Source: Chloroflexota bacterium | GTDB lineage: Bacteria > Chloroflexota > Limnocylindria > P2-11E | Direction of reading: 5' to 3' | Length of the DNA: 64,000 nucleotides | NCBI GenBank assembly: GCA_027310565.1 | Contig: DAIDAP010000001.1 | Coordinates: 62,001 to 126,000 of the forward strand | Part shown: piece by piece, positions 56,945 to 63,401 of the stretch | How positions within the stretch are numbered: position 1 is the stretch's first letter | Layout of the letters: each line of letters starts with the position of its first letter | Notes under the pieces: model-generated | Database searches by the model: none | Told to the model about the DNA's origin: nothing | What the model saw: only the letters and a program-made list of their open reading frames with translations | Position numbers and translations under genes: made by a program

Positions 56945-57349
56945 GTGGCGATCGACTGGGGCACCAACGTCTTCACGAGCGACCCGACGCTGCTCGAGCG
57001 CGGCGAGGACGCCGAGTACGAGCGCGCGGCGGACGCTCTGCGCCAGCTCGCCGATCCGCTTCGTCTGCGCCTCCTGCACGCGCTCGTGCTCGGAGAGGAC
57101 ACGCCGCAGCACGCCGCGGTCTGGAGCGACGTCAGCCAGCCCGTCGCGGAGCGCGAGCTCGCGGCCATGGCCCTTGCCGGCATCGTCGAGCGCCGGGAGT
57201 CGCCGCGGGGCCCCTGTTACGTCCCGCGCGACGGGCACCACGTCGTCGAGCTCTACACCGCGCTCATGCACGGCCACGAGGGGATCGCCGAGCGCCACCC
57301 GCGGATGCTCACGCGCCGCCGCCTCGGGCGGGCCCGGCGCGCGGGCTGA
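56945..57349 (+). CDS. ArsR-like winged-helix regulator
   Basis: 134 aa, GTG start. RAADALRQLADPLRLRLLHALVLGED is the ArsR-type helix; VSQPVAERELAAMALAGIVERRESPRGPCYVP continues the winged helix, and HHVVELYTALMHGHEGIAERHPR is a His-rich tail that might bind metal or ligand. First gene of the unit with the BlaI-like and M56 genes. Confidence 0.65.
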   Translation: MAIDWGTNVFTSDPTLLERGEDAEYERAADALRQLADPLRLRLLHALVLGEDTPQHAAVWSDVSQPVAERELAAMALAGIVERRESPRGPCYVPRDGHHVVELYTALMHGHEGIAERHPRMLTRRRLGRARRAG

Positions 57350-57356
57350 CGAGCGC

Positions 57357-57767
57357 GTGAGCGCGCCGCTGCGGCGCATCCGGCGCGCCGCGGCGGGCGG
57401 CCTGCTCGGTCCGCTCGAGGCCGAGATCATGACGCGCTTCTGGCGCCGCGGGCCGGCCACCGTGCGCGACGTCGTCGAGGAGCTCACGCGCGACCGCGAC
57501 CTGGCGTACACGACGGTGATGACGGTGATGGTGCGTCTGAAGCAGAAGGGCCTCCTGCGCCGCGATCGCGTGGGGAAGACCTACCACTACCGCGCGGCGC
57601 TCACGCGCCGGGAGCACGAGGCGCGCGTGTCGCGCGACCTCGCGCGCGGCCTGGTCGCGCGGTTCGGCGACGCCGCGCTCGCGGCGTTCAGCGCCGAGCT
57701 CGCCGGCGTCGATGCCGAGCGCCGCGCGGCGCTGCGCCGGCTCGGCGGGGGGCGGCGTGCGCGCTGA
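57357..57767 (+). CDS. BlaI/MecI/CopY-family repressor
   Basis: 136 aa from GTG 57357. LLGPLEAEIMTRFWRRGPATVRDVVEELTRDRDLAYTTVMTVMVRLKQKGLLRRDRVGKTYHYRAALTRREHEAR is the full Penicillinase_R winged helix; a helical C-terminal dimer part follows (SRDLARGLVARFGDAALAAF). Overlaps the M56 peptidase gene by 11 nt; the pair is the BlaI-BlaR1 layout. Confidence 0.9.
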   Translation: MSAPLRRIRRAAAGGLLGPLEAEIMTRFWRRGPATVRDVVEELTRDRDLAYTTVMTVMVRLKQKGLLRRDRVGKTYHYRAALTRREHEARVSRDLARGLVARFGDAALAAFSAELAGVDAERRAALRRLGGGRRAR

Positions 57768-58710
57768 CCGCGCGTTCGTCCTGGTGCTCGGGCTCGGCGC
57801 CGTGTCGGGCGCCGTCCTCGGCGGGCTCCTCGCCGTGCTCGTCCCGCGCACCGCGCAGGTGCTCGCGACGGGGCCCGACGACCTCGTGGACACCGTGACG
57901 CTCGCGCTGCTCGCGCTCGCGACGGCCGGCATCGCCCTCGGGCTCGGGTCGCTGTTCCGTCAGCTCCTCGCGACCGCTTCGCTCATCCGCGGCCTCGTCG
58001 CGCGCCGCGTCGCGGCCCCGGCGCGGGTCCGGGCCGTCACGCGGTCCCTGGACATCGCGTCGCGCGTCGACGTCGTGTCCGACGCGCGCGCGTTCGCGTT
58101 CTGCTACTGGTTCCGGCGGCCGCGGATCTGCGTCTCGACCGGCCTGGTCCGCGCGCTCTCGAACGAGGAGCTGCGCGCCGTGCTGGCCCACGAGCGCTAC
58201 CACCTGCGGCAGCGCGACCCGCTCCGCGTGGTGATCGCGCGCTACTTCGCCGCCGCGTTGTACGTCGTCCCCGTCGTCGACGAGCTGACGTCCCTCTACG
58301 CGCTGCAGAAGGAGATCGCCGCGGACGACGCGGCGGTGCGCGAGGCGGGTGTCGCGCCCCTCGCCCGCGCGCTGTACAAGGTGCTGCCGACCGCGCCCGG
58401 CGACCTCGGCCTGCTCGCGCCGGTCAGCGGCCTCTCGATCACCGAGGCTCGCATCGACCGGCTCACCCGCGGGCTCGACGTCCCGCTCAGGCTGTCGCCC
58501 GGCTCCGTGGCGCTCTCGGCCGGCGCGCTCGCGGCGGCCGCGGTCCTCGCCGCGATCCGCGTCGGGACGAGCGGCACCTACACGAGCCTCCCGCCGCTCC
58601 TGGCCGTCCCGGCGCTCCTCCTCGCGCCGGCGTCGCTGCTGTTCGCCGCGGCGCTCGCCGGCGGCGCGCACCAGGTCCGCGCGGTCGCCGGTCTGGCCAC
58701 CCGACGCTAG
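57757..58710 (+). CDS. M56-family membrane metallopeptidase (BlaR1-like)
   Basis: 317 aa from GTG 57757. Zinc site LAHERYHLRQRDP (HExxH) with KEIAADDAAVREAG carrying the third ligand region; FAFCYWFRRPRICVSTGLVRALSNEELRAVL is the M56 lead. Helices on both sides; no penicillin-binding sensor domain at the C-terminus, which consists of two helices. It should cleave the BlaI-like partner on a signal sensed by its own short loops. No beta-lactamase gene is in the window. Confidence 0.87.
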   Translation: MRADRAFVLVLGLGAVSGAVLGGLLAVLVPRTAQVLATGPDDLVDTVTLALLALATAGIALGLGSLFRQLLATASLIRGLVARRVAAPARVRAVTRSLDIASRVDVVSDARAFAFCYWFRRPRICVSTGLVRALSNEELRAVLAHERYHLRQRDPLRVVIARYFAAALYVVPVVDELTSLYALQKEIAADDAAVREAGVAPLARALYKVLPTAPGDLGLLAPVSGLSITEARIDRLTRGLDVPLRLSPGSVALSAGALAAAAVLAAIRVGTSGTYTSLPPLLAVPALLLAPASLLFAAALAGGAHQVRAVAGLATRR

Positions 58711-58721
58711 GCAAGCCGGCC

Positions 58722-58750
58722 TTTACTTCCGGCCGCCAAAGCCGGATAGT
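58722..58750 (+). promoter_or_regulatory. Candidate promoter of the secreted-peptide gene
   Basis: -35 TTTACT (58722-58727), 17-bp spacer, -10 GATAGT (58745-58750), each 4 of 6 to consensus. It would give a leader of about 50 nt, unlike the leaderless neighbours. Confidence 0.4.
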
Positions 58751-58783
58751 CGCCGGCGGAGGGGCCCAGCGACACAAATCGCC

Positions 58784-58805
58784 GGTGGGGTCGGGAGGAC
58801 CCACC
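58784..58805 (+). promoter_or_regulatory. Hairpin holding the Shine-Dalgarno of the peptide gene
   Basis: GGTGGGGTC (58784-58792) pairs with GACCCACC (58798-58805) with one bulged G, leaving GGGAG (58793-58797), the core of the Shine-Dalgarno, in the 5-nt loop. ATG 58808 follows at once. Translation may depend on this fold. Confidence 0.45.
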
Positions 58806-58807
58806 TA

Positions 58808-58933
58808 ATGTCGATCCGTCGTGCTCTTCAGATCGTGACCTTCGCTTTCGCCCTGGTGTTCGCGATGAGCGTCCCCGCGGCCAGCCTGAGCGCCTACGCC
58901 TGCGACCCCACAGACACAGGCGGCCTCTGCTAG
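58808..58933 (+). CDS. Small secreted Cys-peptide precursor (candidate signal peptide pheromone)
   Basis: 41 aa. MSIRRALQIV is a basic start, TFAFALVFAMSVPAASLSA a hydrophobic core, and the chain ends YACDPTDTGGLC. A signal-peptidase site AYA before Cys would free CDPTDTGGLC, ten residues with Cys at both ends, able to form a disulfide ring. GGGAGG precedes ATG 58808 by 9 nt. The next gene on the same strand encodes an XRE-TPR regulator. That is the arrangement of RRNPP peptide-receptor pairs. No homologue recalled. Alternatives: small structural secreted peptide or non-signalling leader. Confidence 0.6.
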   Translation: MSIRRALQIVTFAFALVFAMSVPAASLSAYACDPTDTGGLC

Positions 58934-58968
58934 AGAGCTCCGCGTCGCACAGGCCCCCACGCGGGGCC

Positions 58969-59030
58969 GACCGAGACAAACGGGCATCCTGGGCCCGTGG
59001 ACCCCGACCGGCATCGCCCCGGTCTCGGTC
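58969..59030 (+). other. Structured intergenic region between peptide and regulator genes
   Basis: GACCGAGAC (58969-58977) pairs with GTCTCGGTC (59022-59030) over 9 bp. Inside lie CGGGC/GCCCG (58981-58985 with 58993-58997) and ACCGG/CCGGT. Together a three-armed fold ending the peptide transcript or regulating the regulator gene. No U-tract follows. Confidence 0.4.
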
Positions 59031-59054
59031 CGAGATTTCAGGGTTCACGCTGGA

Positions 59055-59083
59055 TTGACCGCCGGCTTGCCGCTTCGTAAAGT
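59055..59083 (+). promoter_or_regulatory. Sigma-70-like promoter of the XRE-TPR gene
   Basis: -35 TTGACC (59055-59060), 17-bp spacer, -10 TAAAGT (59078-59083), 9 nt before GTG 59093. One of the strongest promoters in the window, and leaderless. Confidence 0.65.
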
Positions 59084-59092
59084 GACGGTGCT

Positions 59093-60373
59093 GTGGCTCT
59101 GGTTCGACCCGGGATGGCCTCCGACGTCGGCGCGCGCATCCGCTCGCTGCGGACGGCGAAGGGCCTCACGCAGGCGCAGGTCGCGGAGCCGCTGTACACC
59201 AAGGCCTACATCTCGATGCTCGAGTCCGGCCGGACGCGGGCGTCGATGAAGGCGCTCGAGCACATCGCGGGCGTGCTCGGCGTGAAGCCCTCGGACCTGC
59301 TGGGCGGCTCGTCCACGCCGGCGACGCCGCAGTACGAGCTGGTGGAGGCCAGACGCCTGCTCGAAGAGGGAAGGGCGAAGGATGCCCTGGTGATCCTCGA
59401 GAAGCTCGAGGACGGACTGACCGCGTCGGACCAGCTGGTCCGGCTGCGCTATCTCGCCACCGCGTACAACCTGATCGGTCAGCCAAAGCAGGCGTTCCCG
59501 GTGATCGAACGTGCCCAGCGAATGGCGGAGCTCCTCGAGAGCGTCGAGGAGTCCGTGCGCGTGAAGGCGGTCCTGGCCTCCGCGCACGCGAAGACGTACG
59601 CGTATTCGGACGCGATCCGGCTGCTCCGCGAATGCGTGACCGCCTGCGAGAGCGGTGAGGTGAAGGACCCCACGTTCCATTTCCGCAGGCTCGTCGATCT
59701 CGCCGTGAATCTGACCAACGATCGTCAGCCCAAGCAGGCGCTCGCGATGTACGAGCGCGCGATCGAGCTGAGCTCGCGGTTCTCCGATCAGGCCTCGTCG
59801 GCCTTCCTGTACGCGGGCATCGCGAAGCTGTATCAGAACGAGGGTGACCTGGAAGCCGCGATCAGGTACAACCAGAAGAGCCTTCAGGTCTACGAAGAGC
59901 TCGGCCTTCTCGACCAGGCCGCTTGTGCTTTGGACAACGCCGCGATGCTCTACGCCGACTACGGGAGCAAGGAGCGTGCGCGTGAGTGTCTCGAGCGCGC
60001 GGGGCGGCTTGCGACCGCAGCGGGGCGATTCGGCACGCTGGCGTCGATCCGCGCGTCCGAGGCGGAGGTCACGGCGAAGGGCGACCCCGCCGCCGGGCTC
60101 GAGGCCGCGCAGGAAGCGCTCAAGTTCGCGCGCAAGATCGACCAGCCCGACGCGCAGGTGCGCTGCCTCATCCTCATCGGCGAGGCGAAGATGGCGTCGA
60201 GCCCCACCGCGGCGAGGCGCTCCTTCCAGGAGGCCAGCCAGCTCGCCGAGGCGCGCGTCCCGCACCTGCTGCGGGTCGTGTTCGACCGCTGGTCGCGCGC
60301 GGTCGAGGCGAAGGGCGACAGCGACGAAGCGCTCCGGCTCGCGCGCCGGGCGCTCGAGACAGCACGCACATAG
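59093..60373 (+). CDS. XRE-family regulator with TPR repeats (RRNPP-like)
   Basis: 426 aa from GTG 59093 (ATG 59114 possible). Residues about 11-72 are an XRE helix-turn-helix (VGARIRSLRTAKGLTQAQVA ... YISMLESGRTRASMKALEHIAGVLGV). From about 80 to 420 run helical TPR pairs (RYLATAYNLIGQPKQAFPVIERAQR, AVNLTNDRQPKQALAMYERAIELSS, AKLYQNEGDLEAAIRYNQKSLQVYEELG, NAAMLYADYGSKERARECLERAGRLA, ARRSFQEASQLAEA). This is the build of cytoplasmic peptide receptors such as PlcR, PrgX and Rap-type proteins. Codon use in the TPR part is less GC-biased than in neighbours. The secreted-peptide gene lies 159 nt upstream. Confidence 0.85.
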   Translation: MALVRPGMASDVGARIRSLRTAKGLTQAQVAEPLYTKAYISMLESGRTRASMKALEHIAGVLGVKPSDLLGGSSTPATPQYELVEARRLLEEGRAKDALVILEKLEDGLTASDQLVRLRYLATAYNLIGQPKQAFPVIERAQRMAELLESVEESVRVKAVLASAHAKTYAYSDAIRLLRECVTACESGEVKDPTFHFRRLVDLAVNLTNDRQPKQALAMYERAIELSSRFSDQASSAFLYAGIAKLYQNEGDLEAAIRYNQKSLQVYEELGLLDQAACALDNAAMLYADYGSKERARECLERAGRLATAAGRFGTLASIRASEAEVTAKGDPAAGLEAAQEALKFARKIDQPDAQVRCLILIGEAKMASSPTAARRSFQEASQLAEARVPHLLRVVFDRWSRAVEAKGDSDEALRLARRALETART

Positions 60374-60403: not shown

Positions 60404-61318
60404 ATGACCCTCAGCGCGGCGCTCGTGCGCGAGCGCGTGCGCGGCACGATCCTCGAGCGCATCGGCGACACGCCGCTCGTCCGTCTGCGGCGCATCGACG
60501 CCGGTCTGCGCGGCGAGCTCTGGGCCAAGCTCGAGTCGGCCAACCCCGGCGGCAGCCTGAAGGACCGCGCCGGCCTGTGGATGGTCATGGCCGCCGAGGT
60601 CGAGGGACGCATCGGCAAGGACAGCGTCGTCCTCGACGCGACCAGCGGGAACACCGGCGTCGCGCTCGCGATGGTCTGCGCGGTGCGCGGGCACCGCTGC
60701 GCGCTGGTCATGCCCGACAAGGTCTCGTCCGAGCGCCGGCGCATCGCGCGCGCGTTCGGGGCCGAGGTCATGCTCAGCGATCCGCTCGAGGGCACCGACG
60801 GCGCGATCCGCGAGGCGCGCCGCCTCGCCGCCTCCGACCCGCGTTACGTGTACGTCGACCAGTACTCGAACAGGGCGAACCCGCTCGCCCACGAGCACAC
60901 GACGGGGCCGGAGATCTGGTCGCAGACCGCCGGGCGGGTCACCCACGTCGTCGCGGGCGTCGGCACCTCCGGGACGGTCGGCGGCATCTCCGCGGCCCTG
61001 CGGCCGAAGGGCGTGCGCGTCGTCGCCGTGCAGCCGGACGACCCGCTGCACGGCATCGAGGGCTGGAAGCACATGCCGACCGCGCTGCGCCCGGCGATCT
61101 GGGACGAGCGGGTCGCGGATGTGCACATGGTCCAGGGCACCGAGGAGGCGCTCGCCATGACGCGCAGACTCGCGAGGGAAGAGGGCATCTTCAGCGGCCC
61201 GTCCGGCGGCGGCGCGGTCGCCGCGGCGGTGCGGGTCGCGCGGGAAGAGAGCGGCCGTATCGTCGTGTTGATCGCCGATGGGGGCGAGCGATACCTGGGC
61301 ACCACGCTCTGGGAGTGA
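60404..61318 (+). CDS. cysM: Cysteine synthase, CysM type
   Basis: 304 aa. IGDTPLVRLRRI, PLP-lysine in NPGGSLKDRAG (Lys about 53), LDATSGNTGVALAMV, VAGVGTSGTVGGI and FSGPSGGGAVAAAV. Followed within 5 nt by a ThiS-like carrier and then a JAMM peptidase, it should be the CysM that takes sulfur from thiocarboxylated CysO, known from mycobacteria, rather than from free sulfide. The best acceptor there is O-phosphoserine. Confidence 0.9.
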   Translation: MTLSAALVRERVRGTILERIGDTPLVRLRRIDAGLRGELWAKLESANPGGSLKDRAGLWMVMAAEVEGRIGKDSVVLDATSGNTGVALAMVCAVRGHRCALVMPDKVSSERRRIARAFGAEVMLSDPLEGTDGAIREARRLAASDPRYVYVDQYSNRANPLAHEHTTGPEIWSQTAGRVTHVVAGVGTSGTVGGISAALRPKGVRVVAVQPDDPLHGIEGWKHMPTALRPAIWDERVADVHMVQGTEEALAMTRRLAREEGIFSGPSGGGAVAAAVRVAREESGRIVVLIADGGERYLGTTLWE

Positions 61319-62138: not shown

Positions 62139-63401
62139 ATGCGTGCGTCCCGCGCGCTGCTCATGGCGGTGCTGGCCGGTCTGGTCGTCTCGGCGTGCGC
62201 CGGCCCCGCCGCCGCGGCGGAGGAGATCCGCTCGTCGGCTCCGCGCGGGTCCGCGGACGCCGCCGCCGCGGCGAAGGCCGCGGCCGCGCTCGACGCGTTC
62301 GCGACCGACCTCTACCGCGAGCTGGCGAAGAAGGAGGGCAACCTCGTGCTCTCCCCGTACAGCGTCGCCGTCGCGCTCGCGATGGCGCGCGCCGGCGCGG
62401 CCGGCGAGACCGCCGCGCAGATGGACGCCGTGCTGTACGCCGCGCTGGCGGGCGACCTGGACGCCGGGTACAACGCGCTCGATCAGGCCCTCGCGACACG
62501 TTCGGGGAAGTTCAAGGTCGGCGATCAGACCCTCGAGCTCGAGCTCGCGACGGCGAACCGGCTCTGGGGCCAGAAGGGCTTCACGTTCGAGCAGGCCTTC
62601 CTCGACCGTCTCGCCGCGTCGTACGGGGCGGGCATGCAGATCGTCGACTACAAGGCGGCGCCGGAAGCGTCCCGCAAGACCATCAACGCCTGGGTCGAGG
62701 AGCGCACGCGCGGCCGCATCGTGGACCTCATCCCGCAGGGCGTCATCGACGCGCTGACCCGTCTCGTGCTCACGAACGCGATCTACCTCAAGGCGAGCTG
62801 GCTGTACCGGTTCGGCGACGCGACTGCGGCGCCGTTCACGCTCGCCGACGGGTCCAGCGTCCAGGCGCAGCTCATGCCCCTCAGCGAGGGCCTCCAGTAC
62901 GGCAGGGGCGACGGCTACCAGGCCGTGCAGCTGCCGTACGCCGGCGGGCTCGCGATGATCGCGCTCGTGCCCGACGCCGGGACGCTCGCCGCGTTCGAGG
63001 CGTCGCTCGACGGCACCAAGCTGCGGGCGATCGTCGGCGGCCTGCGCTCGACCCGCGTCGATCTGTGGCTGCCCAAGTTCTCCTACCGGACCGAGGCGAG
63101 CCTCAAGGACACACTCGGCGTGCTCGGTATGCCGGTCGCGTTCACCGGCGAGGCGGACTTCTCGGGCATCACGAAGGAGGCCCCGCTCGAGATCGCCGAC
63201 GTCCTGCACCAGGCGTTCATCGCGGTCGACGAGAAGGGCACCGAGGCCGCGGCCGCGACAGCGGTCGTCATGCGCGAGACGGCCGCGCCGGCCGACCAGG
63301 TCGAGCTGCGCATCGACCGGCCGTTCCTGTACCTCATCCAGGACACCGCGACCGGCGCGATCCTGTTCATGGGACGCGTGAGCGACCCGACGAAGTCGTA
63401 A
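62139..63401 (+). CDS. Serpin lipoprotein (protease inhibitor)
   Basis: 420 aa, ATG with CGGAGGA upstream. Lipobox LVVSAC at residues 15-20, so membrane-tethered. Serpin marks: NLVLSPYSVAVALAMARAGAAGETAAQM, TANRLWGQ, RIVDLIPQGVIDALTRLVLTNAIYLKASW, ADVLHQAFIAVDEKGTEAAAATAVVM and RPFLYLIQDTATGAILFMGRV. The hinge GTEAAAATA is of the inhibitory kind. By counting from the conserved Glu (P17) the scissile bond is near RET-A. Inhibits a serine or cysteine protease outside the cell. Confidence 0.92.
   Translation: MRASRALLMAVLAGLVVSACAGPAAAAEEIRSSAPRGSADAAAAAKAAAALDAFATDLYRELAKKEGNLVLSPYSVAVALAMARAGAAGETAAQMDAVLYAALAGDLDAGYNALDQALATRSGKFKVGDQTLELELATANRLWGQKGFTFEQAFLDRLAASYGAGMQIVDYKAAPEASRKTINAWVEERTRGRIVDLIPQGVIDALTRLVLTNAIYLKASWLYRFGDATAAPFTLADGSSVQAQLMPLSEGLQYGRGDGYQAVQLPYAGGLAMIALVPDAGTLAAFEASLDGTKLRAIVGGLRSTRVDLWLPKFSYRTEASLKDTLGVLGMPVAFTGEADFSGITKEAPLEIADVLHQAFIAVDEKGTEAAAATAVVMRETAAPADQVELRIDRPFLYLIQDTATGAILFMGRVSDPTKS

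Follow-up and report, generated by a model that had tools for sequence, protein, structure and literature searches.

A gene for a small, putatively exported peptide lies immediately upstream of an XRE-TPR regulator gene in an uncultured Chloroflexota bacterium, and among the relatives of this organism the two genes are kept, gained or lost together. The peptide combines an export-like N-terminus with a pair of cysteines, its reading frame carries the mark of purifying selection, and the promoters of both genes share a motif. We consider it fairly probable that the peptide is a secreted signal which is sensed by the neighbouring XRE-TPR protein, in a system that would resemble the RRNPP systems in its logic; common descent with them is not claimed.

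The locus and its conservation

The analysed window is the whole stretch of 64,000 nucleotides, taken from a genome of 2.79 Mb in 38 contigs that is 97.5% complete. Both open reading frames (ORFs) were found where the initial annotation had placed them, the peptide ORF at 58808-58933 and the regulator ORF at 59093-60373, both on the + strand and separated by 159 bp. Upstream of the pair, at 57348-58710, the window contains genes for a BlaI-like repressor and an M56/M48 membrane peptidase. A role of the peptidase in processing of the peptide is conceivable. Since the BlaI and M56 genes are also present in relatives without the pair, they are probably unrelated to it. Directly downstream of the regulator, here (60404-61318, + strand) and in the orthologous loci examined, lies a cysM-like cysteine synthase gene (PALP), a possible output gene, which is followed by a gene for a ThiS/MoaD-like carrier and then by one for a JAMM-type protease, the latter assigned by eye. 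At 62139-63401 the window also encodes a serpin with a signal-peptide-like N-terminus (Pfam Serpin, E 6e-103); serpins are a family of protease inhibitors better known from animals.

The comparison set consisted of 28 genomes of the same uncultured Chloroflexota family. An orthologue of the regulator (64-73% identity to that of the window) is present in 17 of them, the window's own genome included, and the peptide gene lies immediately 5' of it in all 17. The contigs with orthologues belong to metagenome-assembled genomes (MAGs) of uncultured Chloroflexota (Chloroflexi) from soil and lakes. Both genes are missing in the other 11 genomes, some of which are incomplete MAGs and several of which are 89-95% complete. 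The adjacency on which the initial annotation had made its proposal depend thus holds throughout the family (17/17 with the regulator, 0/11 without it).

The pair sits exactly between the M56 peptidase gene and cysM in the window and in the majority of the relatives carrying it, while in other congeners it is preceded by an EamA-like gene and not by the M56 peptidase gene. Five genomes (L171-L175) show the order BlaI-M56-cysM without the pair, and there the end of the M56 peptidase ORF is no more than tens of bases away from cysM. Since the same junction occurs with and without the pair, gain or loss involves both genes together.

The peptide gene

The 41 codons encode MSIRRALQIVTFAFALVFAMSVPAASLSAYACDPTDTGGLC and are preceded by the Shine-Dalgarno (SD) sequence GGGAGG (58793-58798), 9 nt 5' of the ATG. 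Residues 1-31 resemble a signal peptide, with a predicted cut between AYA and CDPTDTGGLC; the product has no Pfam match. All 17 peptides have a signal-peptide-like N-terminus and a tail of the form C-x(6-9)-C, and nearly all of them show RR in the n-region, a hydrophobic core and A-x-A ahead of the tail. They align from the initial M-S as far as the last Cys, and M1, S2, R5, A31, C32 and C41 are invariant (17 sequences). The second Cys is the last residue in 16 of the 17 peptides, and one carries WHP after it. The tails, of 9-12 aa, are acidic to neutral and variable between the two Cys.

The pooled pN/pS of the gene was 0.53, at saturated synonymous sites. In close pairs omega was 0.14 (L007-L008), 0.19 (L003-L004 and L007-L011) and 0.26 (L007-L017 and L010-L017), and the closest pair, L012-L013, gave 0.42 on few changes. 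The close-pair values of 0.14-0.26 indicate that the ORF is under purifying selection, in line with what had been predicted for a functional pair. A strict filter, which we devised for small ORFs of the exported type and tuned by eye, yielded one other candidate when applied to both strands of the window (128 kb). Four lines of evidence, namely co-occurrence, alignment, selection and chance, indicate that the peptide ORF is a real gene. Outside the family, no convincing homologue of the peptide was found among 177 genomes of the class or in phage records.

The regulator

The 426-aa product of 59093-60373 is an XRE-TPR protein and a putative peptide receptor, with Pfam matches to HTH_3/HTH_31 and TPR_12 at E 4e-10 to 1e-15 (HTH_3, E 4.2e-10; TPR_12, E 1.2e-15). 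AlphaFold2 predicted one HTH followed by about nine TPRs (pLDDT 93.8). The likeness to PlcR and to Rap-type receptors seen by the initial annotation was recovered for both, by profile or by fold. The profile of the regulator matches PlcR across the HTH and the TPRs (residues 3-250, E 1.1e-5) and also RapF, both matches being weak. The fold matches in the PDB are led by general TPR proteins such as LGN, with PlcR in complex with PapR, the Rap protein of phage Phi3T with peptides, and RapI ranking lower, at 11-18% identity; in the alignments with the two Rap proteins, sequence identity is 11-13%.

The nearest curated family (NCBIfam) is NsdA (NF053720, E 5.9e-12), where the score of 45.8 bits lies below the cut-off of 75 and leaves the regulator outside the family. 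The NsdA-type regulators of Streptomyces share the XRE and TPR architecture, and we know of no peptide partner or ligand for them. As the top curated family is NsdA and not an RRNPP family, we claim for the pair a resemblance to RRNPP systems in logic, and not in descent.

As a docking proxy, AlphaFold2 was run on the natural read-through chain of the two genes, which share a frame, with TAG and TAA read as residues. In this crude model, which is no valid test of binding, the peptide tail was disordered and not placed in the groove (pLDDT about 24-29); the prediction of a receptor-peptide complex suggested with the initial annotation thus left the tail unplaced and weighs neither for nor against binding.

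Promoters, candidate operator and RNA elements

Two separate promoters had been proposed, and both stand. For the peptide gene, TTTACT-17 nt-GATAGT (58722-58750, + strand) is a weak match to the consensus and gains support from its position, which 16 of the 17 orthologues share. For the regulator, TTGACC-17 nt-TAAAGT (59055-59083, + strand) is the only sigma-70-like match of the region; from its position, transcription of the regulator would begin at the GTG start codon or close to it.

Comparison of the orthologues brought out a candidate operator with the sequence GTAAAG-N5-TTTGAC; it overlaps the -35 boxes of the peptide and regulator promoters, in opposite orientations. In the window a degenerate copy, GTTCACGCTGGATTGAC, lies at 59043-59059 before the regulator. 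At the peptide promoter, GCAAGCCGGCCTTTAC (58711-58726) overlaps the -35 and is a degenerate copy of the GTAAA-N6-TTTAC of the orthologues, in which the motif is exact or near-exact at the same locus. Throughout the 28 genomes, exact GTAAA-N6-TTTGAC has 11 copies, all in the promoter of an orthologous regulator, and GTAAA-N6-TTTAC is confined to two peptide promoters. Allowing up to one mismatch, GTAAAG-N5-TTTGAC, a motif that was picked by viewing the alignment, whose right half doubles as the -35 and whose copy in the window is degenerate, has 20 copies, 14 of them in regulator promoters, three in peptide promoters and three elsewhere. The three near-exact copies outside the locus, retrieved in a regulon search of the 28 genomes, have no common target.

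The SD of the peptide gene lies in the loop and 3' arm of a hairpin, GGTGGGGTC...GGACCCACC (58784-58805, + strand). This hairpin, another element of the initial annotation, is conserved in the 17 orthologues, but its energy compared with shuffled sequences is ordinary for its composition (z -0.06). The structured intergenic region noted at the outset was confirmed, and its sequence hardly varies: a non-coding element at 58965-59031 (+ strand), lying in what is presumably the 3' UTR of the peptide mRNA, with an outer helix GACCGAGAC/GTCTCGGTC, has 41 invariant columns over 15 orthologues and is better conserved than the peptide ORF. It has no match in Rfam and no copy in viral contigs. Because nearly all of its pairs are invariant, covariation neither supports nor refutes the fold. 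In the window, GCCGGTGGGGTC, the hairpin arm that covers the SD, can pair with GACCCCGACCGGC of the intergenic element, leaving one bulge, and most orthologues have such a complementarity. This complementarity could act as a switch; in many orthologues the duplex energies were no better than those of shuffles (z +0.7 to -2.5), and the switch was set aside.

Other peptide-regulator pairs in the family

Paralogous XRE-TPR proteins of the family, at about 30% identity, adjoin other small peptides of the exported type, here called types B and C, the peptide of the window being of type A. Type B peptides lie 5' of their regulators (L028, L025, L032, L041, L053, L089) and end in GPCWGGDIGC, GPCPPADFGC, GPRPPCVPGWGC, GGPCLPSDVGDC, GPCLPDPYGC and GPCPPPDAGGC, following the pattern GPC...GC. 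Type C peptides begin at or just past the stop of the regulator (L022, L036, L061, L066, L020), in pairs located between glpX and folD. Their tails follow DW.G.PP.CC (DYFGGPPICC, DWGGPPPICC, DWWGSPPLCC, DWMGSPPTCC), and one, SWGGDPPTAG, is without Cys. Within the family, strong matches to the type B and type C peptide profiles are confined to these loci, and elsewhere in the class the type C profile gave marginal signal-peptide matches only.

In a tree of 81 XRE-TPR proteins, built by a quick method with SH-aLRT as the only support, the receptors of types A, B and C form one group each, A and B being neighbours (94) and C standing elsewhere, and each peptide type is confined to its own receptor clade. 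No peptide was detectable beside the members of a large XRE-TPR clade of other families in the class, nor in further clades of this family. From the presence of both paired and unpaired clades it follows that peptide pairing is recurrent and not universal, and the many paralogues without a detectable peptide indicate that the fold does not need one.

In the type B loci (L025, L028, L032, L041, L053, L089), the motif CTAGT/ACTAG, chosen after looking at these same loci, has a density of 13.6 per kb upstream of the peptide and of 6.4 per kb upstream of the regulator, compared with 0.18 per kb in the rest of the loci, and is possibly a lineage-specific operator. In two or three of the genomes with type B pairs (L025, 2842-3399; L028, 2942-3421; L053; regulator set on the + strand), genes for camelysin/TasA-like proteins, with a match to the TasA model far below its cut-off, and/or for SipW-like signal peptidases lie 3' of the regulator. 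This neighbourhood suggests, and does no more than suggest, that the output of type B could be the surface or biofilm matrix, as would fit a population signal. The likeness to SipW/TasA biofilm cassettes is limited to type B and does not extend to the locus of the window.

Discussion

Published work presents RRNPP-type signalling as belonging to Bacillota and the mobile elements of this phylum (PMC10075063, PMC9765709, PMC12700828); where genomes were surveyed (PMC10075063, PMC9765709), only those of Firmicutes and viruses were included. The structural phylogeny of RRNPP is likewise framed on Bacillota. In the open-licence papers to which our search was limited, no report of such systems in Chloroflexota or Actinobacteria was found. 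In validated systems the exported propeptide has 21-50 aa, and its gene stands -50 to 191 bp from that of the receptor (PMC10075063). RRNPP_detector looks for receptors of 250-500 aa with a TPR HMM at E < 1e-5 and an optional HTH, and for propeptides of 10-100 aa at a distance of -60 to 400 bp and preceded by an SD (PMC10075063). The regulator, with its 426 aa, TPR_12 and HTH_3, falls within the first rule, and the propeptide, with 41 aa, 159 bp and GGGAGG, within the second. Given this agreement in size, spacing, TPR, HTH and SD, we think that the pair reasonably likely works as an RRNPP pair does. The label of RRNPP-type pair in the initial annotation is therefore retained in part: co-occurrence, selection and the export-like N-terminus speak for it, but the nearest curated family of the regulator is NsdA, matched below its cut-off.

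In the model that we favour, in which translation of the peptide and the sign of regulation are both presumed, the 41-aa propeptide would be exported by Sec and cut after A-x-A, to give a peptide of 9-12 residues with Cys at or near both ends, which a disulfide would probably close once it is outside the cell. The peptide would be re-imported through an oligopeptide permease; the genome encodes 17 SBP_bac_5 oligopeptide-binding proteins, which are common genes and not linked to the locus. In the cytoplasm it would bind to the XRE-TPR protein of the adjacent gene, in the concave groove, and binding would alter the grip of the HTH on the candidate operator. As the -35 boxes of the peptide gene and the receptor gene both overlap with this operator, the system would be self-controlled. 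Its action is likely to be local. The regulator may also govern the cysM operon, which begins within tens of bases 3' of it.

Like PlcR-PapR of the Bacillus cereus group, the pair combines a receptor that has an HTH and TPRs with an adjacent gene whose product is a short, putatively exported propeptide. The papR gene lies downstream of plcR, and the PapR heptapeptide is without a Cys pair. In the window, unlike in that system, the propeptide gene is 5' and has its own promoter, Cys stands at both ends of the tail, there are about nine TPRs, and the host belongs to the Chloroflexota; type C pairs do share the downstream position of the peptide. Rap-Phr, NprR-NprX and AimR-AimP also combine a TPR receptor with an exported propeptide, Rap proteins being without a DNA-binding HTH.

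The peptide might instead be the effector itself, a bacteriocin-like or membrane-active toxin directed against others or self, with the XRE-TPR protein serving only as regulator or antidote and sensing nothing. A small hydrophobic ORF with a hairpin that sequesters its SD, a tail that varies between two Cys and the gain and loss of a two-gene cassette would all suit a toxin. However, nothing nearby is recognisable as a gene for immunity, export or modification, the tails are tiny and carry an acidic to neutral charge, the TPR array is large and of the peptide-binding type, and the peptides differ by receptor clade, so that we regard this role as unlikely.

The proximity of a cysteine synthase gene gives some appeal to a cysteine-responsive attenuator, in which ribosomes stalled, under cysteine shortage, at the Cys codons of a leader peptide would steer the folding of the intergenic RNA and thereby control a regulator-cysM operon. 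Two conserved Cys codons do lie close to the end of the ORF, with structured, near-invariant RNA past its stop, yet the promoter of the regulator lies past this structure, and no U-tract terminator was found; in an attenuator, the downstream gene would depend on read-through past a terminator. An attenuator also leaves the conserved amino acids of the export-like N-terminus unaccounted for, and the peptides of types B and C stand beside XRE-TPR proteins with no adjacent cysteine genes, those of type C even 3' of the receptor gene. The retention of cysM at the five empty sites, where the leader is missing, further speaks against attenuation of cysM, and we hold this explanation to be very unlikely.

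The peptide might also have some other function, for example in redox or envelope stress, as a small protein that is secreted or anchored in the membrane and that is controlled by an XRE-TPR protein sensing something else. This would agree with the many XRE-TPR proteins of the class that have no peptide and with NsdA-type regulators, for which no peptide ligand is known to us, as the nearest curated family, but is made highly improbable by the strict pairing in 17 genomes and by pairings that exist separately in two further receptor lineages.

A broader proposal, which we put forward tentatively and as less than an even chance, is that Chloroflexota have evolved or retained their own set of peptide-pheromone systems, with at least three XRE-TPR lineages, each with its class of exported Cys-peptide and its operator, and with type A forming a disulfide ring of 9-12 residues that is read inside the cell. 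In that case, peptide sensing inside the cell would reach beyond Bacillota, and its ligands would include a ring-shaped one. The Cys-flanked tails predict that the signal is either reduced or recognised as a ring once inside. Most Chloroflexota are uncultured, and the phylum is abundant in soil and lakes; peptide-receptor pairs of this kind would make its cell-cell signalling testable from sequence alone. They would also raise the question of whether intracellular peptide sensing is older than Bacillota or has arisen more than once.
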